Below are positions 4,667 through 37,729 of a stretch of 53,420 nt of DNA, one piece after another; positions within the stretch are counted from its first letter, which is position 1; each line of letters begins with the position of its first letter. The notes beneath the pieces are model-generated. The model was not told the DNA's origin, ran no database searches, and worked only from the letters and a program-made list of their open reading frames with translations. The DNA comes from Streptomyces sp. NRRL WC-3605. GTDB lineage: Bacteria; Actinomycetota; Actinomycetes; Streptomycetales; Streptomycetaceae. The stretch covers positions 1 to 53,420 of the forward strand of contig NZ_LLZN01000072.1 of NCBI RefSeq assembly GCF_001509795.1, written 5' to 3'. The position numbers and the translations under genes are program-made.

Positions 4667-4680
4667 GCCGCGCCGGGTGC

Positions 4681-4707
4681 GCCGGGCAGGACGGCAGGGT
4701 GCCCGGC
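4681..4707. terminator. Hairpin after rmdA
   Basis: The 8-bp arms GCCGGGCA (4681-4688) and TGCCCGGC (4700-4707) are exact complements around 11 bases and begin 15 bases after the rmdA stop. It is a weak terminator candidate. Sequences this GC-rich form short dyads by chance, so confidence is modest. Confidence 0.4.
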
Positions 4708-4792
4708 GGCCCGGCCCCGCGTGGTCGGATAGCGTGACGAGCGAGACGGCGGCGCCGCGTCCGGGCAGCCGCCGGGAAGGCGGGGTCCGGTC

Positions 4793-5695: not shown

Positions 5696-5843
5696 AGCTG
5701 CGGCGCCTGGACCTGCGGCGATGCCGGCTGGGCATCAATGGCGCCGGGACCGGCATTGGACGGGCCGGTGACGAGCTCCAAGACTCGGAAGGGCCAGGAC
5801 GAACCACCGGCGTCCTTCCCCCCGACCTTCCTTGGAGCCCGCG

Positions 5844-6851
5844 ATGCGTGCTGCCGTAGCCACCGGCGCCAACCTCCCGCTCACCCTCGACGACCACGAC
5901 GTCCCGCACCCCGCCGCCGGCGAGGTCCTCGTCAAGGTCACCGCCTGCGGTGTCTGTTTCTCCGACCTGAGCCTGCTGCGCGGCCACTACCCCTTCGCCC
6001 GGTTCCCCGTGATCCCCGGGCACGAGATCACCGGCGTCGTCACCGCCGTCGGGGAGGGCGTCACCTTCCCCGAGGTCGGCACGGCCGTCGGCGGCCAGTT
6101 CCTGTACGACTCCTGCGGCCACTGCGACTACTGCGTGCGCGGCGACCAGATCCTGTGCCCGCGCAAGCGGATCACCGGGGTGGTGACCGACGGCGGTTAT
6201 GCCGAGTACGTGCTGCTCAAGGCCGGGTTCGCGACCCCGCTGCCGGACGGCCTCGACCCGGTCGCCGCGGCCCCGCTGATGTGCGCGGGCCTGACCGCCT
6301 TCAACGGGCTGCGGCAGGCAGGCGCGACGGCGGGCTCCCGTGTCGCGGTCGTCGGGCTGGGCGGCGTGGGTGCCCTCGCCGTGCGCTACGCCGTCGCGAT
6401 GGGCGCGCGGGTGGCCGTGATCGGCCGCTCCCGGCGCGGCGAGGACCAGGCGAAGGCGCTGGGCGCCGACCTGTTCGTCGCCACCGGCGAGTCCGACCCG
6501 GCCGAGGCGCTGAAGGCGTGGGGCGGCGCCGACGTCGTCCTGAACGCCGCCCCCTCCACCGAGGCGGCCGCCGCCACCCTCGGCGGTATCGCGCCCGACG
6601 GCACCCTGCTGCTGCTCGGCTACGGTCCCGAGCCGCTGACCCTGCCCACCCAGCCCATGATCCTCAACCGGCTGCACGTGGTCGCCTCGCCGTCCGGCTC
6701 CCCGCACGACCTGCGCGACACCCTCGCCTTCTCGGCGGCCCACGACATCCTCCCCGAGGTCACGCCGATCACCCTCGACCAGGCGCCGGGCGTCCTCGAC
6801 GCGATGGCCGACGGCTCGGCCCACGGCCGCAGCGTGATCACCTTCGGCTGA
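5844..6851 (+). CDS. Zinc-dependent medium-chain alcohol dehydrogenase
   Basis: This is a 335-residue cytoplasmic oxidoreductase of the MDR superfamily. The catalytic zinc site is visible as CGVCFSD (Cys38) and GHE (His60, Glu61). The structural zinc loop has four cysteines, CGHCDYC and the later C (91, 94, 97, 105). The NAD(P)-binding Rossmann motif is VVGLGGVGALAVRYA. It should interconvert an alcohol and an aldehyde or ketone; the substrate cannot be read from the sequence. ATG 5844 has GGAG 6 bases upstream, and a longer TTG start at 5832 is less likely. It is followed 42 bases later by an SDR with its own strong ribosome-binding site, so both probably share a transcript. A short dyad GATGCC/GGCATC at 5720-5736 lies in the upstream gap. 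Confidence 0.9.
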   Translation: MRAAVATGANLPLTLDDHDVPHPAAGEVLVKVTACGVCFSDLSLLRGHYPFARFPVIPGHEITGVVTAVGEGVTFPEVGTAVGGQFLYDSCGHCDYCVRGDQILCPRKRITGVVTDGGYAEYVLLKAGFATPLPDGLDPVAAAPLMCAGLTAFNGLRQAGATAGSRVAVVGLGGVGALAVRYAVAMGARVAVIGRSRRGEDQAKALGADLFVATGESDPAEALKAWGGADVVLNAAPSTEAAAATLGGIAPDGTLLLLGYGPEPLTLPTQPMILNRLHVVASPSGSPHDLRDTLAFSAAHDILPEVTPITLDQAPGVLDAMADGSAHGRSVITFG

Positions 6852-6893
6852 CCGGCCACCTCTCGTCCCACCCCGCCCCGCAAGGAGACCGCC

Positions 6894-7772
6894 ATGCCCT
6901 CCACCGTCCTCGTCACGGGTGCCTCCAGTGGCTTCGGCGCCCTGACCGCCCGCGCCCTCGCCGACGCCGGGCACACCGTCCACGCCGGCATCCGCCAGAC
7001 CACCGGCCGCAACGCCCCGGCCGTCGCCGACGCCCGCGCCTACGCCGAACGGCACGGCGTCGACCTGCGCCCCCTCGAACTCGACGTGTCCAGCCAGGAC
7101 TCCGTGGACGCGGCCGTCGCCGAGGCCGGCCGGATCGACGTCGTCGTCCACAACGCCGGGCACATGGTGCTCGGCCCGACGGAGTCCTTCACCCCGGAGC
7201 AGATCGCCGAGATCTACGACACGAACGTCGTGTCCACCCAGCGCCTCAACCGGGCCGTGCTCCCGCAGATGCGGGAACGGAGGGACGGCCTCCTGGTGTG
7301 GGTCGGCTCGACCAGCACCTACGGCGGCACCCCGCCGTATCTCGGCCCCTACTTCGGCGCCAAGGCCGCCATGGACCACCTGGCCAAGAGCTACGCGGTC
7401 GAACTGAGCCGCTTCGGCATCGACACGGCCCTCGTCGTCCCCGGCTCGTTCACCTCCGGCACCAACCACTTCGCCCACGCGATGCACCCCGAGGACACGG
7501 CCACCGCCGAGGCGTACGACGCCCTGTACGGCGGGCTCATGGACGACGTGGGCAAGGCGCTCGCGGCCCTGGCCCCGGCCGACGCCGACGTCCGGGAGGT
7601 CGCCCGCGCCATCGTCCGTGTCGTCGGCGCCCCGAAGGGCGAACGGCCGTTCCGGACGACGATCGACCCGGCCGACGACGGCTCCGAGCGGGTCAGCGAC
7701 GTCGCCGACGCCGTCCGCGCCGAGTTCTACCGGCGTATCGGCATGCCGGACCTCCTGACCGTCCGCGGCTGA
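6894..7772 (+). CDS. SDR-family oxidoreductase
   Basis: This is a 292-residue short-chain dehydrogenase/reductase. The nucleotide-binding motif TGASSGFG is near the N-terminus, the structural HNAG replaces the usual NNAG, and the catalytic Ser and Tyr/Lys appear as STSTYGG and YFGAK. It reduces or oxidises an unidentified carbonyl or alcohol with NAD(P)H. The length exceeds the classical 250 residues because of a C-terminal extension (about 230-292), a feature of sub-families acting on bulkier substrates. AAGGAGA lies 6 bases before ATG 6894. The gene follows the alcohol dehydrogenase by 42 bases, and a two-step redox conversion by the pair is possible but unproven. Confidence 0.9.
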   Translation: MPSTVLVTGASSGFGALTARALADAGHTVHAGIRQTTGRNAPAVADARAYAERHGVDLRPLELDVSSQDSVDAAVAEAGRIDVVVHNAGHMVLGPTESFTPEQIAEIYDTNVVSTQRLNRAVLPQMRERRDGLLVWVGSTSTYGGTPPYLGPYFGAKAAMDHLAKSYAVELSRFGIDTALVVPGSFTSGTNHFAHAMHPEDTATAEAYDALYGGLMDDVGKALAALAPADADVREVARAIVRVVGAPKGERPFRTTIDPADDGSERVSDVADAVRAEFYRRIGMPDLLTVRG

Positions 7773-7846
7773 CGCGGCGTACGGCGGCACGTCGGGCGGG
7801 TGCGTGACCGCGGTCCGGGCGGCGGGCCGGCCCCGGAGGCGGCAGC

Positions 7847-8668
7847 ATGACCGTGGGGGCCCCGGGTCCGATCGGAGTGTGGAACAGCATGAACACGGAA
7901 CTGCAGGGCAGGACCGCCGTCGTCACCGGAGCGAGCAAGGGCATCGGACTGGCGGTCGTGGAGGCGCTCGCCCAGGCCGGCGCCCGGGTCGTGGCCGGCT
8001 CGCGCACCGCCTCCGAACGGCTGGAGAGCCTCGTGGAGGAAGGCTCGGTGACCTGGGTGCCGGTCGACCTCGCCGAGCCCCGGGCGGCCGAGGAACTCGT
8101 CGCCGCGGCGGGCGGGCGCATCGACGTCCTGGTCAACAACGTCGGCACGGCGCCCGCCCGCACCGGCGGCTTCCTGTCGGTCACCGACGAGGACTGGCGG
8201 CGCACGATCGACCTCAACCTGCTCGCCGCCGTACGGGTCACCCGGGCCGCGCTGCCCGTGATGCTGGACGCCGGCGACGGCTCGGTGATCACGGTCGGCT
8301 CCGTCAACGCCACCCTCCCGGACCCGCTGGTCATCGACTACAGCGCGGGCAAGGCCGCCCTGGTGGCGTTCTCCAAGGCGCTGTCGAAGGAGGTCGGCCC
8401 GAGGGGCATCCGGGTCAACACCGTCAGCCCGGGCCCGGTCGAGACGGAGCTGTGGCTGGGCGGCGGGGGAGTGGCGCGGACGGTCTCCTCGTCCGCTGGC
8501 ATCACCGCGGAGGAGGTGGTCGCCCAGGCGTCCAAGGCCACCGTCACCGGCCGCTTCTCCCGGCCCGCCGAGATCGCCGACCTCGTGCTCTTCCTCGCCG
8601 GCGACCACGCCCGCAACATCACCGGCAGCGATCTGATCATCGACGGAGGCTTCATCCCCACCTGGTGA
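7847..8668 (+). CDS. SDR-family oxidoreductase
   Basis: This is a classical short-chain dehydrogenase/reductase with TGASKGIG (cofactor loop), NNVG, catalytic Ser in VGSVN and YSAGK. The C-terminal IDGGFIPTW ending is typical of the FabG-like subgroup. The product is 273 residues from ATG 7847, which has GGAGG 7 bases upstream. An alternative ATG at 7889 (GGAG 11 bases upstream) would give a 259-residue protein starting MNTELQGRTAV, closer to the usual distance to the glycine motif, so the start is uncertain. It lies 74 bases after the preceding SDR and converges with the LysR gene to the right, only 22 bases apart. Confidence 0.88.
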   Translation: MTVGAPGPIGVWNSMNTELQGRTAVVTGASKGIGLAVVEALAQAGARVVAGSRTASERLESLVEEGSVTWVPVDLAEPRAAEELVAAAGGRIDVLVNNVGTAPARTGGFLSVTDEDWRRTIDLNLLAAVRVTRAALPVMLDAGDGSVITVGSVNATLPDPLVIDYSAGKAALVAFSKALSKEVGPRGIRVNTVSPGPVETELWLGGGGVARTVSSSAGITAEEVVAQASKATVTGRFSRPAEIADLVLFLAGDHARNITGSDLIIDGGFIPTW

Positions 8669-8690
8669 GCGCCGGACGGGCCCGGGGCGC

Positions 8691-9575
8691 TCACCGCTCC
8701 AGCAGCATCCGCTGCAGCTCCCGCGCGGCCCGCGGCGGTGCCACGTCGCTGCGGTGGGCCAGCGCGATCGTCCGGTGCAGCCCGGGCCGGGCCAGCGGGG
8801 TGACCCGCAGCCCTCCGCCCGACCGCGCCGCCACCATGCGCGGGACGACGGCCAGGCCGAGCCCCGCCCTGACGAAGCCCAGCACCGCGTCCATCTCGCC
8901 GCCCTCGACCGCGAAGTCCGGTTCGAAGCCCTCGGCGCGGCAGGCCGCCACCGTCAGCTCCCGCAGGTCGTAGCCGTGCCGGAACATCACGAGGCGCTCG
9001 CCCTCCAGGTCGGCGATGCGCACCGCGCGCCGCCCGCCGCCCGGCCGCGGGGCCTCCGGTGAGGAGACGACGACCAGGTCCTCGCGCAGCAGTTCCACCG
9101 TCGTCAGCGCGGGGGACGGCGTCGGCAGGGGCAGGACGACGAGGGCGAGGTCGAGGGCGCCGCGTGCCAGCTCACGCACCAGGTCGTGCGAACCGCCCTC
9201 CTCGATGAGCAGCTGGATGCCCGGGTAGCGGTCGTGGAAGGCGCGCAGCACGTCCGGGAGCAGACCCGTGCACAGGCTCGGGGTGGCGCCGAGCCGGACC
9301 CGGCCCCGGCGCAGCTGCACCAGTTCCTGCACCTCGTGCCGGGCCGTGTCGGCGTCGGCCAGGATGCGCCGGGCCAGCGGCAGCAGGGCCTCCCCGGCGT
9401 CCGTCAGCGTGATGTTGCCCCGGGCCCGCAGGAACAGGTCCGCGCCCAGCTCCCGCTCCAGGGCCTTGATCTGTTGCGACAGCGAGGGCTGCGCCACGTG
9501 CACCAGATCGGCGGCGCGGGTGAAGTGCCGGGTCTCGGCGACCGCCACGAAGTACTGGAGCTGCTGGAACTGCAT
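8691..9575 (-). CDS. LysR-family regulator divergent from sdhCAB
   Basis: This 294-residue LysR regulator has MQFQQLQYFVAVAETRHFTR and VAQPSLSQQIKALE in the N-terminal helix-turn-helix and a C-terminal effector-binding domain (about 90-294). It is transcribed away from the succinate dehydrogenase operon with only 83 bases between the start codons, the usual layout for a LysR protein controlling its divergent neighbour. A dyad ATAG-N7-CTAT of the T-N11-A type lies 10 bases upstream of its start. From memory, the same arrangement exists in S. coelicolor (SCO0925 beside SCO0924). ATG 9575 was chosen because it places the first helix at the normal distance; longer in-frame starts would cover the operator. 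Confidence 0.9.
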   Translation of the reverse strand: MQFQQLQYFVAVAETRHFTRAADLVHVAQPSLSQQIKALERELGADLFLRARGNITLTDAGEALLPLARRILADADTARHEVQELVQLRRGRVRLGATPSLCTGLLPDVLRAFHDRYPGIQLLIEEGGSHDLVRELARGALDLALVVLPLPTPSPALTTVELLREDLVVVSSPEAPRPGGGRRAVRIADLEGERLVMFRHGYDLRELTVAACRAEGFEPDFAVEGGEMDAVLGFVRAGLGLAVVPRMVAARSGGGLRVTPLARPGLHRTIALAHRSDVAPPRAARELQRMLLER

Positions 9576-9584
9576 ACGTCCATC

Positions 9585-9599
9585 ATAGGGTGCAGCTAT
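9585..9599. promoter_or_regulatory. T-N11-A dyad, candidate LysR-binding box
   Basis: ATAG GGTGCAG CTAT is a 15-base inverted repeat in which T9586 and A9598 are separated by 11 bases, matching the LysR consensus T-N11-A. It lies between the divergent lysR (start 9575) and sdhC (start 9659) genes, about 36 bases upstream of the proposed sdhC -35 box. Binding by the adjacent regulator is inference from position and symmetry. Confidence 0.6.
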
Positions 9600-9620
9600 C
9601 GAAACGAGGCGCACCATGTC

Positions 9621-9658
9621 TTGGACCGATCGGGCCGTTCGGCCCTAGCGTCCTTCTC
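9621..9658 (+). promoter_or_regulatory. Likely leaderless promoter of sdhCAB with a palindrome in the spacer
   Basis: TTGGAC (9621-9626) and TAGCGT (9646-9651) form a -35/-10 pair with a 19-base spacer. The -10 is followed by 7 bases and then ATG 9659, so the expected transcription start coincides with the A of the start codon. No Shine-Dalgarno sequence precedes the ATG, which agrees with a leaderless mRNA. The spacer carries GGGCCG TT CGGCCC (9632-9645), a perfect palindrome that a repressor could use to block RNA polymerase. Confidence 0.55.
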
Positions 9659-10366
9659 ATGGCTCTGGCAACGCGGACGGACCGACGGCCGTCCTTCGCG
9701 CGCACGGTGTGGGACTCGACCGTCGGCAAGAAGACCGTGATGGCGGTCAGCGGACTGATCATGCTGCTGTACCTGGTCGTCCACATGATCGGCAACCTGA
9801 AGATCTTCTTCGGCGCCGGCGACTTCAACCACTACGCGCACTGGCTGCGCACCGTCGGCGAACCGTTCATGCACTACGAGTGGACGCTCTGGATCATCCG
9901 CGTGGTCCTGGTCGTCGCCGTCGTCGCCCACGCGGTCTCGGCGTACCAGCTCAGCCGCCGCGACATCAAGGCCCGCCCCAGCAAGTACGTCCACAAGAAG
10001 CCGCGCGCCTCCTACGCCACGCGTACCATGCGCTGGGGCGGCGTCATCCTCGGCCTCTTCATCGTCTGGCACCTCCTGGACCTGACGACCGGCACCGTGC
10101 ACGCGGGCGGATTCCAGGAGGGACGCCCGTACCAGAACGTCGTGGACACCTTCTCCACCTGGTACGGCAACGTCATCTACATCGTGGCGATGCTCGCCGT
10201 CGGCCTGCACATCCGGCACGGCTTCTGGAGCGCCGCCCAGACCCTCGGCGCCGGCAGCCGCACCCGCGACCGCGCCCTGAAGGCCACGGCCAACGTCCTC
10301 GCGCTGCTGCTCACGGCCGGCTTCATCGCCGTACCCGTGGGCGTCATGACCGGAGTGGTGAGCTGA
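9659..10366 (+). CDS. sdhC: Succinate dehydrogenase cytochrome b subunit
   Basis: This 235-residue membrane protein anchors the flavoprotein and iron-sulfur subunits and passes electrons from succinate to the quinone pool. Five hydrophobic segments can be seen at about 26-46, 76-97, 126-145, 171-188 and 211-233, the topology of the single-subunit b558-type anchor. His42, His91, His138 and His184 lie in these segments and are candidates for ligating haem. There is no separate SdhD, consistent with this type. ATG 9659 is favoured over the in-frame ATG at 9590, which would overlap the LysR box. The sdhA start follows the stop codon by two bases. Confidence 0.92.
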
Positions 10367-10368
10367 AC

Positions 10369-12320
<1,952 letters not shown>

Positions 12321-12324
<4 letters not shown>

Positions 12325-13067
12325 AGCTCACCCTGCGCGTCTGGCGGCAGAAGAACGCCGAAGCCGAAGGCGCCATGTCCACGTACGAGGTGGACGGCAT
12401 CTCCACCGACATGTCCTTCCTGGAGATGCTCGACACCCTCAACGAGGAGCTCATCCTCAAGGGCGAGGACCCCGTCGCCTTCGACCACGACTGCCGCGAG
12501 GGCATCTGCGGCGCCTGTTCGCTCGTCATCAACGGCGACGCCCACGGGCCCGAGCGGACCACGACCTGCCAGCTGCACATGCGGTCCTTCGAGGACGGCG
12601 ACACGATCGACATCGAGCCGTGGCGGGCCTCGGCCTTCCCGGTGATCAAGGACCTCGTCGTCGACCGTTCGGCGTTCGACCGGATCATCCAGGCCGGCGG
12701 CTACATCACCGCGCCGACCGGCGCGGCCCCCGAGGCGCACGCCACCCCCGTGCCCAAGCCCGACGCCGACCTCGCCTTCGAGCACGCCGAGTGCATCGGC
12801 TGCGGGGCGTGCGTGGCGGCCTGCCCCAACGGCGCGGCGATGCTGTTCACCTCCGCCAAGGTCAACCACCTGAACGTGCTGCCGCAGGGCGCCCCCGAGC
12901 GCGAGACCCGCGTGCTCGACATGGTGGCCCAGATGGACGAGGAGGGCTTCGGTGGCTGCACCCTCACCGGCGAGTGCGCCACCGCCTGCCCCAAGGGCAT
13001 CCCGCTGATGTCCATCACCAGCATGAACAAGGAGTGGCTGCGGGCCACCCGGAAGGCCAAGCGGTAA
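12321..13067 (+). CDS. sdhB: Succinate dehydrogenase iron-sulfur subunit
   Basis: This 248-residue electron-transfer subunit has three cysteine clusters. The N-terminal plant-ferredoxin-like 2Fe-2S site is CREGICGAC plus a later Cys (58, 63, 66, 83). The C-terminal domain has [12 protein letters not shown] (158, 161, 164, 168) and [12 protein letters not shown] (213, 219, 223), which together build the 4Fe-4S and 3Fe-4S (or second 4Fe-4S) centres. It links SdhA to the membrane subunit. It is the last gene of the operon. A strong hairpin at 13121-13152 separates it from the convergent gas-vesicle cluster. Confidence 0.95.
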
Positions 13068-13120
13068 CACCCCCGGGGCACGGCCCCGTCACGAGACGTT
13101 CGCCGGCAGGTGCGGACGGG

Positions 13121-13152
13121 CGGGACCGGGAGAGGTGCTCCTCCCGGTCCCG
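13121..13152. terminator. 12-bp hairpin between sdhB and gvpK
   Basis: CGGGACCGGGAG (13121-13132) and CTCCCGGTCCCG (13141-13152) are exact complements around an 8-base loop. It lies between two convergent operons, 53 bases after the sdhB stop and 16 bases beyond the gvpK stop, so it can serve as a bidirectional terminator. Confidence 0.75.
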
Positions 13153-13168
13153 TCTGGTGTTCCCGGGG

Positions 13169-13462
13169 TCACCGGCCGGGATCGGCGAGGAGCGGGCCCA
13201 GCGGGCCGAGGTCCAGGTTCAGGTCGGCGCGCCGCAGCCCGTGCTGCGCGCACAGCTCGTCCATGCGTTCGTCCAGCAGCATCAACGCGGTGCCGAGCCT
13301 GTCCTCCTGCTCGGCGCTGAGCGTGCCCTCGTCGAAGCGGCGCACCGCCTGCCGTTCCATCAGCTGCCGCAGCAGCTCCACCACGGTCAGGACCAGCGCC
13401 GCCAGATCGTTCGTGACCCGCTCCGGATCGAGGTCCACGGCATGGGCGCGGGGCGCGGTCAC
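13169..13462 (-). CDS. gvpK: Gas vesicle protein GvpK
   Basis: This 97-residue protein has the GvpK core (PF05121): LDPERVTNDLAALVLTVVEL, RQLMERQAVRRFDEGTLSAE, and a C-terminal RADLNLDLGPLGPLL. GvpK is an accessory protein of gas-vesicle clusters, needed for vesicle formation in other bacteria, with no known enzymatic role. The GTG start at 13462 overlaps the stop of gvpS (GTGA). It is the last gene of the cluster and ends 16 bases before the shared hairpin with sdhB. Confidence 0.9.
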   Translation of the reverse strand: MTAPRAHAVDLDPERVTNDLAALVLTVVELLRQLMERQAVRRFDEGTLSAEQEDRLGTALMLLDERMDELCAQHGLRRADLNLDLGPLGPLLADPGR

Positions 13463-13710
13463 AGCGGCCCGCTGTCCGGCCAGGGCGCGGGCACCCGCTC
13501 GCTCACCGACGCCAGCAGGGCGTGCAGCGAGATCCGCACCAACGGCACGTCGGCGATGGCCAGCACCAGGTCGCCGCTGACCACGACCCCGGTCGCCAGC
13601 ACCCGGTCCAGCAGGTCGACCAGGGGCACCCCGACGGGCGCGTACGGGTCCGGGCCGTCCCACGGCACCGGGGTCCGCGCGTCGCCCGTCGCCACCACCG
13701 GCGCCGTCAT
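13459..13710 (-). CDS. gvpS: Gas vesicle protein of the GvpA/GvpJ family (GvpS position)
   Basis: This is an 83-residue member of the GvpA family (PF00741): VPLVDLLDRVLATGVVVSGD followed by LVLAIADVPLVRISLHALLAS has the helix-strand-strand-helix pattern of the shell protein. The name gvpS is given from its place between gvpL and gvpK, as I remember the Streptomyces cluster. It may be a minor shell or tip component. ATG 13710 overlaps the gvpL stop (ATGA) and its own stop overlaps the gvpK start. Confidence 0.85.
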   Translation of the reverse strand: MTAPVVATGDARTPVPWDGPDPYAPVGVPLVDLLDRVLATGVVVSGDLVLAIADVPLVRISLHALLASVSERVPAPWPDSGPL

Positions 13711-14537
13711 GCGACCACCTCCACCGTGCCGGTGCCCGCGGTCGTGTCCAGCCGGGCGAAGGAGTACGGGATCCAGGGCCCCGACACGATGACCTCCAGG
13801 CCGGTGGCCCCGGCCTCGCGGGCCAGTCTTCCGACGGCCCGCACGAACTCCTCGCGCCGCGCGTCGTCGACCAGATAGGCGGCGTTGAGCAGTTGCGGGA
13901 CGCTCGTGCCGGTCAGCCGCTCGCTCTGCGGCCGGTGCCGGGTCGCGGCGACGGCGTGAGCCCGCAGCTCCCGGTCGACGGCGTGGGCCCGGGCCAGGGA
14001 CTGCTCGCGCGTCTCCCGTTCGGTGCGCCGGCGGGCGCTGGCCCGGCGCAGGTACGACCGCCCGTCGGCCGCGCCCTCCCCGTCGGCGGCACCCCCGGCC
14101 GTCGGGCCGTGCACCTTCACCGCCCACTCCGTACGGTCGCGCAGCCGCTCCAGCAGCGCCCGCAGGGACGCCTCCCGGGCGGTCACGGCCCGCACCGCGT
14201 TGCCGTCGTCGAGGTACAGCGTCGCCATCGGGAGCGGGACGACGGGGCCCGCGCCCGCCGCCTCCACGCCCCGGTGGTGGGCGCGGGCGCAGCGCTCCAG
14301 CGCGTCCGGCCGGTTCAGCCGTTCAGCCAGCGCCTCCTCGCCGTACTCCGTCGCCGGCACGTCCTGCACGACCAGGTGGAACTCACCCGCGGCCAGGGTG
14401 CGCAGGGGGCCGCCGCCGTCGTGGCCCGGCGTCCGCGCGAGCACGTCCGGGGGCACCGGGGAGTCCGTCACGGCGAAGACGCAGAGGAGGGTGCGGGGTT
14501 CCGCCGCCGTCGCCCGGCCGGCCGGGAGCGTGCTCAT
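13707..14537 (-). CDS. gvpL: Gas vesicle protein GvpL/GvpF family
   Basis: This 276-residue protein of the GvpF/L family (PF06386) has an N-terminal domain starting LLCVFAVTDSPVPPDVL, a central LNRPDALERCARAHHRGVEA with VPLPMATLYLDD, a helical middle with many Arg/Glu (SYLRRASARRRTERETREQS) and the C-terminal GLEVIVSGPWIPYSFA that marks the family. GvpF/L proteins bind the GvpA monomer and act in early assembly. The start overlaps the gvpJ stop (ATGA) and the stop overlaps gvpS. A second, shorter paralogue is encoded upstream as gvpF. Confidence 0.9.
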   Translation of the reverse strand: MSTLPAGRATAAEPRTLLCVFAVTDSPVPPDVLARTPGHDGGGPLRTLAAGEFHLVVQDVPATEYGEEALAERLNRPDALERCARAHHRGVEAAGAGPVVPLPMATLYLDDGNAVRAVTAREASLRALLERLRDRTEWAVKVHGPTAGGAADGEGAADGRSYLRRASARRRTERETREQSLARAHAVDRELRAHAVAATRHRPQSERLTGTSVPQLLNAAYLVDDARREEFVRAVGRLAREAGATGLEVIVSGPWIPYSFARLDTTAGTGTVEVVA

Positions 14538-30585: not shown

Positions 30586-31512
30586 TCAGCCGGCGACCGC
30601 GGCGACGTACGGGGCCAGCTTGGCCGGGTTCAGGACCCACATCAGCCGTTCGATGCCGCGGTCCGAGACGTCCGCGCACAGCAGCGCCACCGGCTGGTCG
30701 TCGCGCCGCACGAGCACCGCGGGCCTGCCGTTGGCCTCCACCCAGCGCACCTGCGCGTCCGGCCAGAACCGCGGGGCGAAGGCCACGAGGTACCGGGCCA
30801 CCCGCTCCCGTCCGGCGACCGGGACACGGGACGCCCCGCGCATCCCGCCGCCGTCCGCGTAACTGACGACGTCCTCGGCGAGCAGGTCCTCCAGCGCCGA
30901 CAGCGTGCCGGTGCGCGCCGCCTCCAGGCACGTCTCCAGCAGCCGCCGGTGCGCACCCTCGCTCACCGGCTCCCGGCGTGCCGCCTTCAGATGCTTCCGG
31001 GCGCGGCTCACCAGCTGACGGGTGTTCGGCTCGCTGGTCTCCAGGATCTCCGCGATCCGTCCGTACGGGTAGTCGAAGGCCTCACGCAGCACATGGGCGG
31101 CGCGCTCCTGCGGGTTGAGCCGCTCCAGCAGCAGCAGGACCGCCAGGTCGACGGCCTCCGCCCGCTCCGCGCCGAGTTGCGGGTCCGCGCGGGTGTCGAC
31201 GGGCTCCGGGAGCCACGGGCCCACATACGTCTCCCGCCGCCTGCGGGCGGACTGCGTGGAGTTGACGGCCAGGCGCGTGGTGACGGTCGTCAGGAACGCG
31301 GCCGGCTCCCGGACGGCCGAGCGGTCGGCGCGCTGCCATCGCAGCCAGGTCTCCTGGAGGACGTCCTCGGCGTCCGCCACGCTGCCGAGCATGCGGTAGG
31401 CGATGCCGAAGAGCTGGGGACGCGCCGCGACGAAGTCCTTCATCGCGTGCTCGAGCGAGTCCCCGTCCGCCGTGGCGCGGTCGAGGGGTTCGCGGTCGTC
31501 CCCGTCGCCCAT
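30586..31512 (-). CDS. ECF41-group RNA polymerase sigma factor with SnoaL-like C-terminal domain (SigJ-like)
   Basis: This is a 308-residue sigma factor. Region 2 has LFGIAYRMLGSVADAEDVLQ and ETWLRWQ; region 4 has LNPQERAAHVLREAFDYPYG and NTRQLVSRARKHLK. The C-terminal NTF2/SnoaL-like domain (about 190-308) carries DGGG (in SYADGGGMRGA) and NPAKL, which correspond to the ECF41 motifs DGGGKV and NPDKL. In ECF41 this domain, rather than an anti-sigma factor, modulates activity. The next gene upstream on the same strand is an AhpD/CMD-like protein, the usual ECF41 partner. GGGAGG lies 5 bases before ATG 31512. Confidence 0.92.
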   Translation of the reverse strand: MGDGDDREPLDRATADGDSLEHAMKDFVAARPQLFGIAYRMLGSVADAEDVLQETWLRWQRADRSAVREPAAFLTTVTTRLAVNSTQSARRRRETYVGPWLPEPVDTRADPQLGAERAEAVDLAVLLLLERLNPQERAAHVLREAFDYPYGRIAEILETSEPNTRQLVSRARKHLKAARREPVSEGAHRRLLETCLEAARTGTLSALEDLLAEDVVSYADGGGMRGASRVPVAGRERVARYLVAFAPRFWPDAQVRWVEANGRPAVLVRRDDQPVALLCADVSDRGIERLMWVLNPAKLAPYVAAVAG

Positions 31513-31636: not shown

Positions 31637-32110
31637 TCAGCCGAACATGCCCGGACGGTAGTCCCCGGCGGGCTGCCGGTTGATGACGTTGACGCGGTTG
31701 TAGGCGTTGATGAGGGCGATCAGCGAGATCAGCGCGACGAGCTGCTCCTCGTCGAAGTGCTTGGCCGCCCGCTCCCAGGCCTCGTCGGTGACACCGCCGG
31801 ACGCGTCGGCGATCCGGGTGCCCTGCTCCGCCAGTTCGAGGGCGGCGCGCTCGGCGTCCGTGAAGACGGTGGCCTCCCGCCAGGCCGCGACCAGATGGAG
31901 GCGCTGAGCGCTCTCGCCGGCGTGCGCTGCGTCCTTCGTGTGCATGTCGGTGCAGAAGCCGCAGCCGTTGATCTGGCTGGCGCGGATCTTCACCAGTTCC
32001 TGGACGGTGCCGGGCAGCGACGAGTCCGAGATCGCCTTGCCGGCGGAGTTGACGTGCTTCAGCACCTTGCCGGCCAGCGGGCTGCCGAAGAAGTCGAGAC
32101 GCGGTTCCAC
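31637..32110 (-). CDS. Carboxymuconolactone decarboxylase / AhpD-like protein, ECF41 partner
   Basis: This is a 157-residue protein of the CMD/AhpD fold. It reads LVKIRASQINGCGFCTDMHT, with the redox CxxC (CGFC) and the conserved His of CxxxCxxxH-type AhpD motifs, then LHLVAAWREATVFTDAERAA and ISLIALINAYNRVNVI. It probably acts as a peroxidase or in a related redox reaction. The GTG start at 32110 has GGGAG 7 bases upstream and begins at the common position (VEPRLDFF). It lies upstream of the sigma gene on the same strand, and a candidate ECF41 promoter precedes it. Confidence 0.9.
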   Translation of the reverse strand: MEPRLDFFGSPLAGKVLKHVNSAGKAISDSSLPGTVQELVKIRASQINGCGFCTDMHTKDAAHAGESAQRLHLVAAWREATVFTDAERAALELAEQGTRIADASGGVTDEAWERAAKHFDEEQLVALISLIALINAYNRVNVINRQPAGDYRPGMFG

Positions 32111-32146
32111 GGTGAACTCCCAGAGGTAGGAGGGATACACCTCAAG

Positions 32147-32173
32147 GACCGGTCCGGGCGCGCGGATGTGACA
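32147..32173 (-). promoter_or_regulatory. Candidate ECF41 promoter of the CMD/AhpD-like gene
   Basis: Read on the minus strand, TGTCACA (32173-32167), a 16-base spacer and GGTC (32150-32147) lie 37 bases upstream of GTG 32110. The ECF41 consensus, as I recall it from work on this group, is TGTCACA-N16-CGTC, so the -35 is exact and the -10 matches three of four bases. The adjacent gene encodes an ECF41 sigma factor, which makes this the expected target. Confidence 0.65.
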
Positions 32174-32288: not shown

Positions 32289-32340
32289 TCTTGATCGCAA
32301 AAGTTGAACATGTGACGTATGTGCACTTGTGAGAAAAGAT
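32289..32340 (+). promoter_or_regulatory. AT-rich segment upstream of the small-peptide operon
   Basis: This stretch is unusually AT-rich for the window (TTGATCGCAAAAGTTGAACA, then TGTGACGTATGTGCACTTGT and GAGAAAAGAT). TTGATC (32291) or TTGAAC (32304) could be a -35 and TATGTG (32318-32323) a -10, but no pair has ideal spacing. The related words ATGTGAC and ATGTGCAC nine bases apart could be a regulator half-site repeat. The segment lies about 70-120 bases upstream of ATG 32409. Confidence 0.4.
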
Positions 32341-32408
32341 GCGCCCTCTGAGGCGATGTGGTCATCTGGGTTGTGGAGGCTATGGCTGACCCCAGAGGAG
32401 ATGGTGAT

Positions 32409-32594
32409 ATGCCTTCCATGGACAAGGCGACCAAGGACACGACCGGCGTCCGCACGGACCTCGACGCGGCCCTCGACCCCGCAGAGCCCGACGGAGTCTT
32501 CCGTGACAGCCGGGAGTGCGCCGCCCTGGCGCTGCTCTCCGCGGACACCCAGCTGCTGCTGTCCCCGCCGACCCCGCGCCCGAAGAAGGGCTAA
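32409..32594 (+). CDS. 61-residue peptide at the head of an unrecognised operon
   Basis: I do not recognise this small protein. It has an acidic region (DLDAALDPAEPDG), a single cysteine (Cys37 in SRECAALALLSADT), a hydrophobic patch QLLLS and a Pro/Lys tail PPTPRPKKG. It has no signal peptide or membrane segment. AGAGGAG 8 bases upstream supports ATG 32409; an ATG at 32382 would give a 70-residue form with poorer spacing. The next gene starts 31 bases later with its own GGAG. Size, charge pattern and position before several unknown enzymes would suit a precursor of a modified peptide, but a small regulatory or scaffold protein is equally possible. Confidence 0.7.
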   Translation: MPSMDKATKDTTGVRTDLDAALDPAEPDGVFRDSRECAALALLSADTQLLLSPPTPRPKKG

Positions 32595-32625
32595 AGGACC
32601 GGCGAACCCGACAGGAGCACGCTGA

Positions 32626-33333
32626 ATGGAGCAGTCAGGCACTTCGGCCCTCTTGCAGGGCGCGGTGCAGGACCTTGCGTCCGACGTGGTCTCCGCCCTC
32701 CGGGGCGGGGACCATGTGCGCATGTCCGGCACCTCCGCCATGGACGACGTCGAGGGCAGTCTCATCCTCGCGGCCGTGCGGGTACTGGGAGCGGATCTGC
32801 TCCTCCCGCACGTCCTCTTCCCGACCCCGCCCGACCCCGAGGCGCTCGCCGCCTTCCGCCGTACGGCCGAGGCGTACCCGCCCCGCCCCGAGGCCGGCCC
32901 CACCGTCCACTGGAGCCACTGGGCGATGCGCCGCACCCTCGCGCGCCTCGGCTCCCCCCTGCCCGCACCGCCCGGCACGGACGCCGGCGAACCCGGGACC
33001 GAGTGGCTGGAGACGGCCACCTGGCAGGTCCTCACCCATCAACTCGCCGTCCTGGCCGCCCTGGCCGTGCCCGGGGAGGACAGCGCGGTGGCCCGCGTCG
33101 CCCGCGGCCGTCCCGTGGACCTCGCCCGCGGCTTCGTCCGGGCGGTACGCCGCCGGGACTGGCAGCAGGCGGCCGGAGCGGGACGCTGGCTCACCGTCGT
33201 GGACGGCGTGCCGGACACGCTCGGACTCGAAACCGGCCTGGACTTCGTGGAGCTGATGGGCGGCACCGACGCACGGGTCGCGCTCCAGGTGCAGGCCGCG
33301 CGGATCACACGGGCGGCCGGAGCGCTCGTATGA
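32626..33333 (+). CDS. Hypothetical 235-residue protein
   Basis: I do not recognise a family. The protein looks soluble and mostly helical, with GTSAMDDVEGSLILAAVRVL, ADLLLPHVLFPTPPDPEALA, TVHWSHWAMRRTLARLG, TWQVLTHQLAVLAALAVPGE and RRDWQQAAGAGRWLTVVDGV. Several Trp/His clusters (HWSHW) could form a binding pocket. GGAG lies 9 bases upstream of ATG 32626. Its TGA overlaps the ATG of the next gene by three bases (ATGA), so it is translated together with the two paralogous proteins and probably works with them. Confidence 0.75.
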   Translation: MEQSGTSALLQGAVQDLASDVVSALRGGDHVRMSGTSAMDDVEGSLILAAVRVLGADLLLPHVLFPTPPDPEALAAFRRTAEAYPPRPEAGPTVHWSHWAMRRTLARLGSPLPAPPGTDAGEPGTEWLETATWQVLTHQLAVLAALAVPGEDSAVARVARGRPVDLARGFVRAVRRRDWQQAAGAGRWLTVVDGVPDTLGLETGLDFVELMGGTDARVALQVQAARITRAAGALV

Positions 33334-34295
33334 CGGCGACGGACGTCGCGCGGATCCAGGAGGTGGGCGCCGCGGCGCTCGCCTGGCTCTCCGCCCACCG
33401 GGACGAATTCGCCCTCGGCGAGGGCGCGCTCGCCGCCGACGGCCAGGTCGACGCCACCTGGAAACCCCTCGGGGAACTGGCCCAGACCTGCGCGAGCGTG
33501 TGCGCGGGTACCCCGGTCGGCGACCCGCTGCACGAGGCCGCCGCCGGCCTGCTGCGGTTCGCCTGGCGGCAGACCGGGCAGGGGGAGCTGTTCCTGCACC
33601 TCCAGCGCCTGGAGCCGTTCGCGACATATCCCCTGGAGATCTACTCCGTCTTCGCCTCCGCGGGCCTGCGGCACCCCGGTTACGAGACGGCCGCCGCCGT
33701 CACCGCCCGTACCCGCGGCTGGCGTCTGACGGAACAGGACCCGACCCGCCGGCTCGGTGTGCTCAAGGCCGAGCGGCGCGGCGGCGTCCACCGGGCCGAT
33801 GACGCCGAACTGGTCCTGCGGCACACCTGGCTGGGCGGCCGCCCGGAACCCTGGACGTTCGAGCGGTCCGCCGGATACGCGCTCACCCACGTCGTCTTCC
33901 ACCTCACCGACTGGGGCCGCGCCCCCGACGCCCTCCCCGCGGACCTGTCCGAATACCTCGCCCACTGGCTGCCCGCCTGGCTCGACACCTGCCTCGACGC
34001 CGGGATGTGGGACCTGAGCTGCGAACTGCTCGTCGTGGCGGCCAGCCTGCCGGACCCGCCCGACCCCGGCGTCCTGCGGGACGCCTGGCCCCGGATCGCC
34101 GGCGCCCAGTGCGCCTCGGGCGCCCTCCCGCAGCAGGAGTACGGCGACGGGCGGGAGCCGGACTTCCTGCACTGCTACCACTCCACGCTCATGGCCGCCT
34201 TCGCCGCCGCGCAGTGCCTCACCCGCCTGACCGCCGAGGCCACCGCCGGCACCGGCGGACACCACCGGTACAGGGGACAAGGAGTGCCCGGATGA
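33330..34295 (+). CDS. Hypothetical protein, paralogue 1 (DUF6895-like)
   Basis: This is a 321-residue soluble protein. It shares with the following gene the blocks KPLGELA, RRLGVL, TWLGGRPEPWT, THVVFHLTDWG, YLAHWLPAWLD, WDLSCELLVV and YHSTLMAAFA. The conserved His, Asp and Trp in THxVFHLTxWG and the YHxTL block look like active-site or metal positions on an all-helical fold, perhaps an alpha-toroid. I believe the family is annotated DUF6895, but this is from memory. No function is known to me. ATG 33330 overlaps the preceding stop and its own stop overlaps the next start. Confidence 0.78.
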   Translation: MTATDVARIQEVGAAALAWLSAHRDEFALGEGALAADGQVDATWKPLGELAQTCASVCAGTPVGDPLHEAAAGLLRFAWRQTGQGELFLHLQRLEPFATYPLEIYSVFASAGLRHPGYETAAAVTARTRGWRLTEQDPTRRLGVLKAERRGGVHRADDAELVLRHTWLGGRPEPWTFERSAGYALTHVVFHLTDWGRAPDALPADLSEYLAHWLPAWLDTCLDAGMWDLSCELLVVAASLPDPPDPGVLRDAWPRIAGAQCASGALPQQEYGDGREPDFLHCYHSTLMAAFAAAQCLTRLTAEATAGTGGHHRYRGQGVPG

Positions 34296-35212
34296 CCGAC
34301 ACCCGTCTCATGCACACCGTCGGCGTCCGCGCCCTGGAGTGGCTGTGGGCCCACCGCGACGGCTTCCGCCTCGAACCCGACGCCGACCCCGAGGTCGGCT
34401 TCCTGGACCGCTTCAAACCCGTCGGCGAACTCGCCCTGATCTGCCGGGTGCTGTTCCGCGAGGGCGTGGCCGGGTCCCGGCAGGCCGACCTGGCCCGCCG
34501 GCTCCTCGACCACTCCTGGCGCGAGACCCTGGACGGCGGCCGCATGCTGGCCCGCGGCCAGCGCGTCGAACCGCTGTCGCCGATCCCGTTCGAGGTGTAC
34601 CTGCCGTACAAGGAACTCGGGTACAGCGAGCCCGAGGTGGAGCGCGCGGTGCGCCTCTACCACCGGCTGGAGAGCTGGTCCGCCCTCGAGGTGGACCCCA
34701 ACCGGCGGCTCGGACTGGCCGCGTTCCAGCGCCGCTTCGGCCTCGCCCCGCGCACCCCCGAGACCGATCTCGCGGGCGCCACCTGGCTGGGCCACACCCC
34801 CGAACCGTGGACCGTCAGCGGCCACATCGCCTACGACGTCACCCACACCGTGTTCCACCTGACCGAGTGGGGAGCGCACCCCGAGGGGCTCCCGCCGCAC
34901 ATCGCCGACTACCTCACCACCTGGCTGCCGGTCTGGATCGACGACTGGCTGGACCTGGAGCGCTGGGACCTGCTCGGTGAACTCCTCGTCGTCGACGCCT
35001 GCCTGCCTCGCCCCACCCTGGACGAGCGGGCCTGGGACGGCTTCGCCGCCGCGCAGCAGGCCGACGGCGCCATGCCGGCCGTGCGGTCGATGCCCGAGGG
35101 CGACCCGGACGAGGTGTTCGACCTGGTGTACCACCCGACGCTGGTGGCCGCGTTCGCCTCGGTGCTGGCCACCTCGCGTGCCCTGACCGCCCTCACCCAC
35201 GCCCCCGCATGA
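34292..35212 (+). CDS. Hypothetical protein, paralogue 2 (DUF6895-like)
   Basis: This is a 306-residue paralogue of the preceding product. Matching blocks are TVGVRALEWLWAHRDGF, KPVGELAL, PNRRLGLAAFQRRFGL, TWLGHTPEPWT, THTVFHLTEWG, YLTTWLPVWIDDWLD, WDLLGELLVVDACLP and YHPTLVAAFASV. The two differ in the region before the TWLG block and in the C-terminus (this one ends soon after the YHPTL block; the first has an extra 30 residues). Divergence suggests two partners or two reactions rather than a recent duplication. GGAG lies 8 bases before ATG 34292, and the start overlaps the upstream stop. Confidence 0.78.
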   Translation: MTDTRLMHTVGVRALEWLWAHRDGFRLEPDADPEVGFLDRFKPVGELALICRVLFREGVAGSRQADLARRLLDHSWRETLDGGRMLARGQRVEPLSPIPFEVYLPYKELGYSEPEVERAVRLYHRLESWSALEVDPNRRLGLAAFQRRFGLAPRTPETDLAGATWLGHTPEPWTVSGHIAYDVTHTVFHLTEWGAHPEGLPPHIADYLTTWLPVWIDDWLDLERWDLLGELLVVDACLPRPTLDERAWDGFAAAQQADGAMPAVRSMPEGDPDEVFDLVYHPTLVAAFASVLATSRALTALTHAPA

Positions 35213-36285
35213 GCGCCGCCGCGGCGCCCTGGCCGGGCATGGCCGAGGACACCGTTCGGCGGGCCGCCGCCCCTCGCGGGGACCACGACGGCCTGGCCGA
35301 GCGGCTGGTGCGGACCGTCGACGCCGTGGACGCCCCCGACGTCGTCTTCGCGGTGTCCCGCGACGGCCGCCGCACCCTCCACTGCGGGGGCACCGCTGTG
35401 TCCCCGGCGGTGCCCCGGCAGGACCTGCGCTACGAGATCGGCTCGGCCTCGAAGGCGTTCACCGGCCTGCTGTTCGCACGGCTCGTCGGCAGCGGCCTGC
35501 TGACCGGGGGTGAACCCGCCGCCGCCTGCCTGCGGCCCGGCCGCCCCGCCGGTCCCGACCCCGTGACCCTCGCCCACCTCGTCACGCACACCGCGGGACT
35601 GCCCGCCCTGCCGCCGGGCTTCCGCCGCAGCGCGCTGCCCGCCTGGCGCACCAACCCCTACGGCCGCTACCCGGCCGAACGAGTCGTCGACGCCTTCCTG
35701 CGCCACAGCCCCCGGCACCGGCCCGGCACCCGGTGGCACTACTCCAACTTCGGCGTCGCCGTGCTCGGGCACGCACTGGCCGCCGTCACCGGCACGCCCT
35801 GGGACGAACTGCTCGCCGGACACGTGCTGCGCCCGCTCGGCCTGACCGGCACCTCACTGCGCCCCGAGGACCCGAAGACGGATGCGACCGGGCACGCCAA
35901 GGACGGCCGCACCCCCACCCTCCCCTTCGACGCGGGCGGCTTCGACGCGGCCGGTGCGGTCCGGGCCACCCCGCACGACCTGCTCACCTTCCTGGAGGCG
36001 CACCTCGACCCGGCCGGCTCCCCGGACGCCGGCGCGCTGCGCGCGGTGCGGACCCCGGTGCTGCGGCGCGGCCGGGGTCATGTCCACGAACACACCGTGG
36101 CGTGGTTCCGGCACCCCACCGACGGCGGCCCGATGTACTTCCACAGCGGGGCCACCCTCGGCCAGCAGGCCTTCCTCGGCTTCCGGCCGGACACCGGGAC
36201 GGCGCTGGTCGCGCTGTGCACCCGCCGGTACCGCGCCCGCGACCCCTTCGTGCCCACGGCGTACGCGCTGCTCGCGGAGGACTGA
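35209..36285 (+). CDS. Serine hydrolase of the beta-lactamase/class C fold
   Basis: This 358-residue protein of PF00144 has the catalytic SxxK motif in GSASKAFTGLLFARL, the YxN motif in WHYSNFGVAVLGHALA and the third motif near FHSGATLGQQAF (HSG in place of KTG). Relatives are D-aminopeptidases, esterases and lactamases. No signal peptide or transmembrane segment is present, so it probably acts in the cytoplasm, unusual for a cell-wall enzyme but suited to maturing an intracellular product. ATG 35209 overlaps the paralogue-2 stop (ATGA). A very strong hairpin follows 7 bases after the TGA. The activity towards the 61-residue peptide is a guess. Confidence 0.88.
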   Translation: MSAAAAPWPGMAEDTVRRAAAPRGDHDGLAERLVRTVDAVDAPDVVFAVSRDGRRTLHCGGTAVSPAVPRQDLRYEIGSASKAFTGLLFARLVGSGLLTGGEPAAACLRPGRPAGPDPVTLAHLVTHTAGLPALPPGFRRSALPAWRTNPYGRYPAERVVDAFLRHSPRHRPGTRWHYSNFGVAVLGHALAAVTGTPWDELLAGHVLRPLGLTGTSLRPEDPKTDATGHAKDGRTPTLPFDAGGFDAAGAVRATPHDLLTFLEAHLDPAGSPDAGALRAVRTPVLRRGRGHVHEHTVAWFRHPTDGGPMYFHSGATLGQQAFLGFRPDTGTALVALCTRRYRARDPFVPTAYALLAED

Positions 36286-36355: not shown

Positions 36356-37729
36356 CTACACCCGCTGCCACAGGGCGGGTGTGCCGTCCGGCGCCCACCG
36401 GCTCTGCGCCTGGTGGCTCTGGAGGCACTGGTAGCGCACCCCGGCGACGGTCACCGTGCTGCCGGCCTCGTAGACGCGGCCCGCCGCCCACTGGTCGTTC
36501 GCCGGCTCCTCCTGCGTGGCCTGCGTGCCCTTCTGCGCGGTCGCCGTCTTCAGGACCAGGCCGAAGTCGCTCAGGATGGGGTTGACCGGCTGGTAGTACG
36601 TGGTGCCGCCGCTGGTGCAGTTGCCCGAGCCGCCCGAGGTCACGCCCTGGGCCTGCGACCCGGACAGGTAGGAGCCACCGGAGTCCCCGGGCTCGGCGCA
36701 CACCGTGGTCCGGGTGACCCCGTCGACGGTGCCCTCGGAGTAGCGGACGCTCGTGTCGTGCTGCTGGATGGTCCCGCAGTGCCAGCCCGTGGTGGAGCCG
36801 GAGCGGCAGATCGACGCCCCGACGAGCGCCTGCACGGAACCGGTGACCTGGGTCCTCTGCCCGCCCTCGCCCGCGACGTCGGCGGTGGCGGTCCAGTCGC
36901 TGTTCGCGGCCACCCAGGACATGTCCTTGCCGGGGAACGTGGAGGCCTGGAACTCGCCCTGCGCGGCCTGGTCGGCACCGGTCGTCCTGTTCCCCGGCTC
37001 GCCGCAGTGGCCCGCGGAGACGAAGCCCTGCTGCTCGCCCTTGGTGACGGAGAACCCGATGGAGCAGCGGGCGGAGTTCTCGATGTAGTACGCCTCGCCG
37101 CCCACGATGTCCGCCAGCGGCCGGGGCCGCTCGGCCGACACGACGACGGCGACACCGGCGTCCTGGGCGCCGGCCGCCTTGATGAACGAGGTGGCGGCCG
37201 TGCGCCGGGCCGCCTGCACGACGACCCGGTTCGACGGCACGTCCACGTACCAGACCGGGGCGTCCTTCGTCGCGGCCCCGGCGGCGGCCTTGTCCAGCTT
37301 CTCCTTGAGTGCCTGGAGGTCGGCGAGGGGACGCCGCACGACGGCCGCCTTGGCGCCCTGCGCCTCGATGGCCGACACGTCCGACGAGTGCGTCGTCGCC
37401 ACGGTCAGCTCGGCGGCGGTCGACCCGGTCAGCCAGGCACCGGCGAAGCGCTGTCCGAGGGAGAGGCGCAGCCGGCCCGCGCGGACCCCCGCCTCCGCCT
37501 CGTTGACCAGGCGCTCGGCGGCCTGAGCGGACGTCAGCTTCAGATCGCGCTCCAGGGCCCGCAGCACCTGGGCCGGGGGCCGGTCGGCGCCGACCGTCTG
37601 GGCGGCGGTGGAAGCGGGCAGCGGCGCGGGAGGCGGCGCTGCCGCCGCGGCCGTGGTCATCGCGGTGACGGCGAGGACGCCGAGAGCGGTCAGGGCGGCG
37701 CGGCGGCCGTCCGTGGATCTGCCGAGCAT
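36356..37729 (-). CDS. Streptogrisin C-like secreted serine protease with chitin-binding module
   Basis: This is a 457-residue pre-pro-enzyme. It has a signal peptide (about 1-30), an alpha-lytic-protease-type prodomain (about 40-207), a mature S1 protease beginning near IVGGEAYY (208) and a C-terminal CBM5/12 chitin-binding module (about 410-457, NDQWAAGRVYEAGS to LQSHQAQSRWAPDG). The catalytic triad is His241 (SAGHC), Asp269 (FPGKDM) and Ser350 (EPGDSGGSY). Length and domain order match streptogrisin C. The prodomain chaperones folding and is then cleaved off. It starts at ATG 37729 with GGAGG upstream and is divergent from furA. Confidence 0.93.
   Translation of the reverse strand: MLGRSTDGRRAALTALGVLAVTAMTTAAAAAPPPAPLPASTAAQTVGADRPPAQVLRALERDLKLTSAQAAERLVNEAEAGVRAGRLRLSLGQRFAGAWLTGSTAAELTVATTHSSDVSAIEAQGAKAAVVRRPLADLQALKEKLDKAAAGAATKDAPVWYVDVPSNRVVVQAARRTAATSFIKAAGAQDAGVAVVVSAERPRPLADIVGGEAYYIENSARCSIGFSVTKGEQQGFVSAGHCGEPGNRTTGADQAAQGEFQASTFPGKDMSWVAANSDWTATADVAGEGGQRTQVTGSVQALVGASICRSGSTTGWHCGTIQQHDTSVRYSEGTVDGVTRTTVCAEPGDSGGSYLSGSQAQGVTSGGSGNCTSGGTTYYQPVNPILSDFGLVLKTATAQKGTQATQEEPANDQWAAGRVYEAGSTVTVAGVRYQCLQSHQAQSRWAPDGTPALWQRV

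Follow-up and report, generated by a model that had tools for sequence, protein, structure and literature searches.

Organization of the five-gene operon

The window analyzed here, a 53,420-nucleotide contig (NZ_LLZN01000072.1) of the 7.58-Mb genome of Streptomyces sp. NRRL WC-3605, carries at 32409–36285 an operon of five plus-strand genes, A to E, encoding a 61-residue peptide, a protein predicted to be all-helical, two DUF6895 paralogues, and a serine hydrolase. The near relatives of the window, in DNA as in protein comparisons, belong to Streptomyces. Because the peptide has a near-invariant tail and is accompanied by two DUF6895 members and by a hydrolase of a family with D-residue-reading enzymes, the operon probably makes an undescribed modified peptide. 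The genes and the blocks of peptide A, with pN/pS denoting the ratio of the proportions of nonsynonymous and synonymous differences, were as follows.

32409–32594, plus strand: gene A, candidate precursor peptide of 61 residues; 289 proteins at E ≤ 0.001; ahead of B in 78 of 80 named loci
32472–32537, plus strand: conserved candidate leader block LDPAEPDGVFRDSRECAALALL, residues 22–43 of A; pN/pS 0.243
32538–32552, plus strand: free linker SADTQ, residues 44–48 of A; pN/pS 1.025
32553–32591, plus strand: candidate core (or recognition tail) LLLSPPTPRPKKG, residues 49–61 of A; pN/pS 0.030; L-x-S-P-x-x-P in 18 of 18 aligned peptides from both operon types
32626–33333, plus strand: gene B, predicted all-helical protein of 235 residues; no Pfam or NCBIfam family; AlphaFold2 predicted local distance difference test (pLDDT) score 89.2; homologues precede DUF6895 in both operon types
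33330–34295, plus strand: gene C, 321 residues, DUF6895 paralogue 1, in the two-paralogue operon type only; PF21836, 5e-87; branches apart from D
34292–35212, plus strand: gene D, 306 residues, DUF6895 paralogue 2, candidate peptide epimerase; PF21836, 2.9e-84; alpha/alpha-toroid model
35209–36285, plus strand: gene E, 358 residues, serine hydrolase of peptidase family S12; PF00144, 1e-54; SxxK, YSN, and HxG motifs

All five frames described in the initial annotation were intact. Its ATGA overlaps at 33330, 34292, and 35209 were likewise present, with a gap of 31 nucleotides between A and B, and the overlaps were kept across 80 named Streptomyces loci, taken as the best of 349 in a DUF6895 profile search. 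The stop codon of the upstream gene lay in ATGA at 25 of the 80 B/C joints and in GTGA at 55, in ATGA at 79 of the 80 C/D joints and in GTGA at none, and in ATGA at 64 and GTGA at 13 of the 77 testable D/E joints; GTGA is weak evidence of overlap in such G+C-rich DNA.

Conservation of the operon and its sister type

The order A-B-C-D-E was plain in 72 of the 80 named loci, and the eight deviating loci comprised contig ends (L092, L117, L114, L113, L140), a doubled A–B piece (L104), and a match in two pieces (L112, L134). Gene A preceded B in 78 loci, the contig beginning inside B in the remaining two (L113, L140). Tandem copies of A were seen in L069 and L104, the latter with a piece of B between the copies. 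A full operon was also present in another genus of the family (L189), where the peptide ends in LLSPPTPKPKKG. Counted irrespective of the operon, DUF6895 genes were present in 92 of the 199 genomes surveyed in the genus (91 above the cut-off), in 174 of 343 genomes and 6 of 10 genera of the order (172 genomes above the cut-off), and in 7 of 396 genomes of the phylum, where the sole case outside the genus fell below the cut-off; the three genome sets overlap partly.

Seventeen loci (L045–L047, L049–L053, L055–L060, L190, L191, and L198) formed a sister operon type consisting of B, one DUF6895 gene, and E, without C. A different peptide of about 60 residues lay ahead of B in 16 of these 17 one-paralogue loci and ended like LLALLLLSPKEPKEPRGK or LLLLLLLSPKEPKDK (type LLLSPKEPKE). 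In an alignment of 18 peptides, the residues common to both peptide types were Met1, Leu42, Leu50, Ser52, Pro53, and Pro56 of A, with Asp33 nearly so. The two operon types have an A-like peptide, B, DUF6895, and E in common, and no further shared gene was found among the commonest neighbors. In the DUF6895 tree, which leaves out class-5 sequences, the single DUF6895 of the one-paralogue type grouped with D as its sister (98/95), with the C sequences outside this group; this suggests that D carries the shared step, C having been gained by one type or lost by its counterpart. Decaying or broken copies were also observed: L053 has no intact peptide gene, DUF6895 is split over two frames in L198 and split or fragmentary in L199, and L200 retains only a remnant of D, near an S1 protease that by eye resembles the one downstream of E in the window.

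A short precursor-like gene thus placed beside candidate modifying enzymes, and conserved together with them in every named locus not cut by a contig start, is the arrangement expected of a ribosomally synthesized and post-translationally modified peptide (RiPP), and we infer that the partner enzymes modify peptide A. The initial annotation had proposed that a ribosomal peptide is modified and cut here, and had held that homologous operons lacking a conserved short frame would argue against it. The frame was present in the 78 named loci and in the 16 one-paralogue loci given above, and this, together with the occurrence of DUF6895 in other RiPP settings, supports the proposed modification and cleavage.

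The candidate precursor peptide

A search with peptide A recovered 289 proteins at E ≤ 0.001, the window's own included; when 7,983 candidates were scored with a profile built from 18 diverse peptides, 484 were hits. Because of these relatives and the purifying selection in two of its three blocks, A is by these comparisons a real conserved gene and no chance frame. The pN/pS values are plain pairwise Nei–Gojobori proportions from a gapless alignment built from the C-terminus, without a tree, and refer to 77 sequences: the window and 76 of the 80 named loci, with L113 and L140 (cut), L093, and L107 left out and L104 entered by its second copy only. The codons of LLLSPPTPRPKKG do vary at third positions (pS 0.36), two Lys codons excepted. 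To judge from these values, the pattern of A is that of a recognized block and a strictly constrained tail joined by a free linker. It fits a division into leader and core but does not tell which block is the core.

The single Cys of A, to which the initial annotation had drawn attention, was retained in 120 of 120 best homologues. The Cys is not universal, however: it is Ser in L145 and is absent from the peptides of the one-paralogue type. This bears on an alternative in which SPPTPRPKKG would be removed as a recognition (follower) tail and modification would fall on the RDSRxCAALAL block including the Cys. The tail is the most constrained block and holds most of the residues common to both peptide families, as an enzyme-binding tail would, and the retention of the Cys in the best homologues points the same way. 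The exceptions to that Cys argue against this alternative, as does the RDSRxCAALAL block being less constrained than the tail, and we regard it as unlikely. We prefer the tail as the candidate core and the upstream block as the candidate leader.

The DUF6895 paralogues

C and D are 40% identical, in agreement with their first description as two diverged paralogues. They had been regarded as true unknowns, and this view has to be abandoned, since both belong to Pfam family PF21836 (DUF6895), with 292.4 bits (5e-87) for C and 283.3 bits (2.9e-84) for D at a curated cut-off of 23.8 bits. A match of the paralogues to an enzyme family of another pathway had been named in advance as a sign against the peptide pathway; DUF6895 was the only family that they matched above the cut-off, and no epimerase was matched among solved sequences. 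One member of the family is an epimerase of a lasso peptide according to the title of Shi et al. (ACS Catal 2026, doi 10.1021/acscatal.5c08590), as given in the reference list of PMC13352647. The literature search brought up no other mention of DUF6895.

In 12 of 12 sequences from five settings, the residues kept were His185, an acidic residue at 192, Asp226, Leu227, Leu231, Thr184, Phe188, and the glycines 110, 150, 194, and 259 (D numbering). The predicted model of D was an alpha/alpha-toroid, consistent with the fold that had been guessed initially. This fold is common to glycoside hydrolases, terpene cyclases, and sugar epimerases, and therefore the fold alone fixes no chemistry.

Hydrolase E and protein B

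E belongs to PF00144, the beta-lactamase/S12 family, and its SxxK, YSN, and HSG motifs are intact (catalytic center Ser79/Lys82/Tyr178), as expected from its earlier description as an SxxK hydrolase. SxxK, YSN, and HxG were found in 116 of 116 aligned E sequences (98 from two-paralogue loci, 17 from one-paralogue loci, and the window); the alignment took matches covering more than 70% of E, and at least three loci (L074, L075, L203) stand in both the named and the unnamed set of loci. From these motifs, E is very likely active. By eye, E has neither an N-terminal hydrophobic stretch nor a signal peptide, again as first described, and no membrane part was found. Its solved relatives, among the best 60 of 113, were mostly beta-lactamases and included an S12 peptidase (3wwx), an alkaline D-peptidase (4y7p), ClbP, and a D-amino acid amidase (2dns). 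The D-specific and beta-lactamase relatives scored about alike, the beta-lactamases slightly higher.

These relatives allow for an alternative in which E would be a ligase or cyclase like the penicillin-binding-protein-type (PBP-type) thioesterases and would join a DUF6895-made D-residue to an L-residue, giving a macrocyclic peptide. PBP-type thioesterases serve nonribosomal peptides held on a thioester, for which there is no source here, and an amide would be needed as the acyl donor. Such ligation is favored by the membership of E in the beta-lactamase/S12 family, by its position beside epimerase-family genes, and by the joining of an N-terminal L-residue to a C-terminal D-residue that PMC11735501 ascribes to PBP-type thioesterases. 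We consider it improbable that E acts solely in this way. Cleavage by E, with or without joining, is the step that we prefer, and ClbP, another S12 enzyme, is a D-amino peptidase according to PMC9889268.

B had been singled out initially as one of the true unknowns, and it keeps that standing: there was no Pfam or NCBIfam match, and its AlphaFold2 model, all-helical with a pLDDT score of 89.2, had no reliable match in the PDB. The 98 genes taken as direct upstream neighbors of DUF6895 comprised 95 distinct sequences, and all of these resembled B (82 from two-paralogue loci, 13 from one-paralogue loci). The RiPP recognition element, which a partner protein might carry, has a winged-helix fold, unlike the predicted all-helical fold of B. 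A faint likeness to DUF6895 (LTHQLAVLAPL / RRDW) raised the idea that B is a third, degenerate DUF6895 protein; this was rejected, as profile comparison gave a probability of 0.2–0.3% and deeper alignments gave nothing.

DUF6895 in other settings

A survey of 58 regions showed DUF6895 in three settings besides the two operon types. In L192, L193, L195, and L197, DUF6895 lay on the same strand after a lantibiotic dehydratase, LanC, and a two-gene ATP-binding cassette (ABC) transporter, with a peptide reading ..FDLDLEIGVEKSVAGPAITSVSYCTPGCTSDGGGSGCSHCC or near it (FDLDLE..CTPGCTS, CTPGCTS..CSHCC). The Pfam scan covered L193 and L194, and the LanB, LanC, and ABC genes of L192, L195, and L197 were 66–82% identical to those of L193. 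The CTPGCTS..CSHCC lanthipeptide family may carry an extra epimerization. In L194 (about 4450–13889), DUF6895 had a lantibiotic dehydratase to one side and LodA-like and flavin adenine dinucleotide (FAD)/halogenase-like genes to the other.

Two DUF6895 genes flanked a radical S-adenosylmethionine (radical-SAM)/SPASM protein in L061–L065 and L196, accompanied by a glycosyltransferase-like gene. The radical-SAM/SPASM protein of L061 was nearest to RiPP maturases (TIGR04463, 1.9e-33, under its cut-off), and the frame at 6560–6769 (minus strand) of that locus may be a precursor. L061 also has a second radical-SAM protein and an aroma-sacti-domain protein. In four further loci (L043, L044, L048, L054), a longer DUF6895 followed a conserved frame of 65–72 residues (61–64% identity to that of L054). 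If the RiPP reading of the operon holds, these settings suggest a tailoring role for the DUF6895 family in several kinds of RiPP.

The same settings bear on two alternatives. The first is that the operon is an ordinary further lasso or lanthipeptide cluster, as the presence of DUF6895 with lanthipeptide genes elsewhere, and in a lasso pathway by the title cited above, might suggest. However, the five proteins match no lasso cyclase or peptidase and no LanB, LanC, or LanM family, and none of these was a common neighbor by eye among the clusters listed. Specifically, neither an asparagine-synthetase-like cyclase nor a transglutaminase-like leader peptidase was found among the five proteins, the neighbors not having been profile-scanned, and LanB/LanC, LanM, LanKC, and LanL (classes I–IV) were likewise absent from the five. 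For the five genes themselves the family scans thus refute this alternative, and we hold it to be very improbable overall.

The second is that A is a small partner or regulator and no precursor, that the substrate turned over by the operon is a small molecule or a cell-wall peptide, and that the DUF6895 toroid serves other chemistry. The family S12 includes cell-wall D,D-peptidases, the fold of the D model is shared with the varied enzymes named above, and no exporter was found among the commonest neighbors, all of which would suit such a role. The leader-, linker-, and core-like blocks of A speak against it, as do the DUF6895 genes next to a SPASM protein or in lanthipeptide operons that have a peptide of their own, and the lasso-peptide epimerase reported by title. 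A partner role of A accordingly seems rather improbable to us, and we return to A as a candidate precursor.

Transcription signals and neighboring genes

Two further features flank the operon.

32303–32308, plus strand: GTTGAA hexamer, possible promoter element, in an A+T-richer upstream segment; consensus gTTGAA
36292–36348, no strand assigned: 27-bp hairpin where the convergent genes meet, probably ending transcripts in both directions; −68.5 kcal/mol, z −8.9

The AT-rich segment noted initially was borne out, as the G+C content falls to 52% at 32300–32399 as against 67–84% around it. The consensus gTTGAA came from 98 aligned upstream stretches of two-paralogue loci, among which some loci enter twice, and suggests GTTGAA as a possible promoter element. 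The very strong terminator of the initial annotation survives in part: the hairpin 3' of E is stable, none of 200 shuffles reaching its stability, but it lacks a T-run and stands between the operon and a convergent gene for a secreted protease. It is therefore better described as a two-way hairpin than as a textbook terminator.

That convergent gene, at 36356–37729 on the minus strand, encodes a secreted S1 protease with a Pro_Al_protease (alpha-lytic) prodomain and CBM5/12. It adjoins E in 75 of the 80 named loci; the stretches of the other five (L092, L098, L114, L117, L127; 7,262 to 12,090 bases) end within or just past the operon. It was not found (E ≤ 1e-10) in the 11.7–18-kb regions of the distant two-paralogue loci L066–L073 and L078–L081, nor in 14 one-paralogue loci of L045–L060. 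As it is missing from the distant and one-paralogue regions searched, the protease was rejected as a part of the system and is taken as lineage synteny. The same was concluded for a PhoD-like phosphatase gene (identified by eye), which lies on the minus strand about 4 kb downstream and occurs in 48 of the 80 named loci. Upstream and divergent are genes that we take, by eye, to encode a SigJ-like sigma factor (30586–31512, minus strand) and an AhpD-like protein (about 31637–32150, minus strand).

Proposed pathway

We consider it reasonably likely that the locus is a self-contained operon for a kind of RiPP that the literature search did not bring up, in which DUF6895 would make D-residues and E would cut or join there. 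Peptide A would be co-produced with B, C, D, and E, in keeping with the observed gene order, overlaps, and conservation. The LDPxE..RDSRxCAALAL block would act as the leader, and B may hold or present the peptide. D, together with C in this operon type, would then turn one or more L-residues of LLLSPPTPRPKKG into D-residues. From their conservation and from the reported epimerase of the family, His185, the acidic residue at 192, and Asp226 are acid/base candidates. Finally, E, through Ser79/Lys82/Tyr178, would cut, or cut and join, beside the D-residue and free the product, as its S12 membership suggests. So little variation in the core points to a single conserved target within Streptomyces, for instance a signal, and not to a diversifying antibiotic. 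A further-reaching proposal, which we put forward tentatively and regard as rather doubtful, is that the product is a non-diversifying D-amino-acid peptide serving as a widespread endogenous signal or effector. The DUF6895 pair would act with an S12 enzyme that reads the D-center as a mark for cleavage or ligation, so that epimerization would be an address for proteolysis, and the whole would form a new RiPP class with two precursor families.

Several points weigh against the proposed pathway. The product, its modification, and its cleavage are predictions from the genes. The constraint on the tail would fit a recognition tail as well as a core, and the main internal doubt concerns its identity as product or as enzyme-binding tail. 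Since the best solved matches of E are labeled beta-lactamases, its sequence does not show D-specificity. By eye, without profile scans of the clusters, no exporter or regulator was seen among the 30 commonest neighbor clusters of the 80 named loci, nor among the 14 commonest clusters of 14 one-paralogue and 12 distant two-paralogue loci. In the four loci with the longer DUF6895, no RiPP enzyme was seen beside the conserved frame. The lasso leader peptidase PF13471 occurred in 9 of 14 genomes checked, on another contig or far away and never near DUF6895; the link of DUF6895 with lasso peptides therefore comes from the title of the epimerase paper.

No account of the operon was found in the searched literature, outside of which lay most subscription papers and the decRiPPter candidate tables, nor did that literature contain anything on a RiPP combining a beta-lactamase-family enzyme with epimerization. 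What would be new is the precursor pair and the gene set; the logic of RiPPs and the enzyme family were known. If the proposal is right, the operon defines a RiPP class with hallmark genes of its own, and a precursor ending in L-x-S-P-x-x-P followed by B, DUF6895, and S12 genes would be a handle for genome mining. It would also mean that D-residues can act as cleavage marks. The nearly invariant tail is a candidate for a widely shared peptide signal.

Comparison with known systems

One close likeness is to the DUF6895 lasso-peptide epimerase (Shi et al.), as C and D belong to the same family, far above its cut-off. In contrast to that system, there is no lasso cyclase or peptidase among the five proteins, there are two paralogues and a precursor family of its own, and the activity of C and D is a candidate one. 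MslH, a lasso epimerase with a metallophosphatase-like fold, performs the same kind of reaction, from L to D in a ribosomal peptide, that we propose for C and D. C and D matched only DUF6895 above the cut-off. The title of the MslH structure paper, listed among the references of PMC13352647, describes the enzyme as metal-dependent.

E has SxxK, YxN, and significant similarity in common with the S12 peptidases (ClbP, alkaline D-peptidase, D-amino acid amidase, 3wwx), but it has no signal peptide (by eye) or membrane part and scores slightly higher with beta-lactamases. The class I lanthipeptide operons of L192, L193, L195, and L197 resemble the present one in that DUF6895 follows a peptide gene and its enzymes on one strand, whereas their LanB, LanC, and ABC transporter are absent from the five genes here. 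Mycofactocin and AmfS/SapB, with which we know of no shared enzyme, are RiPPs with near-invariant precursors, and by analogy only, peptide A resembles them in a core that hardly changes across many species.

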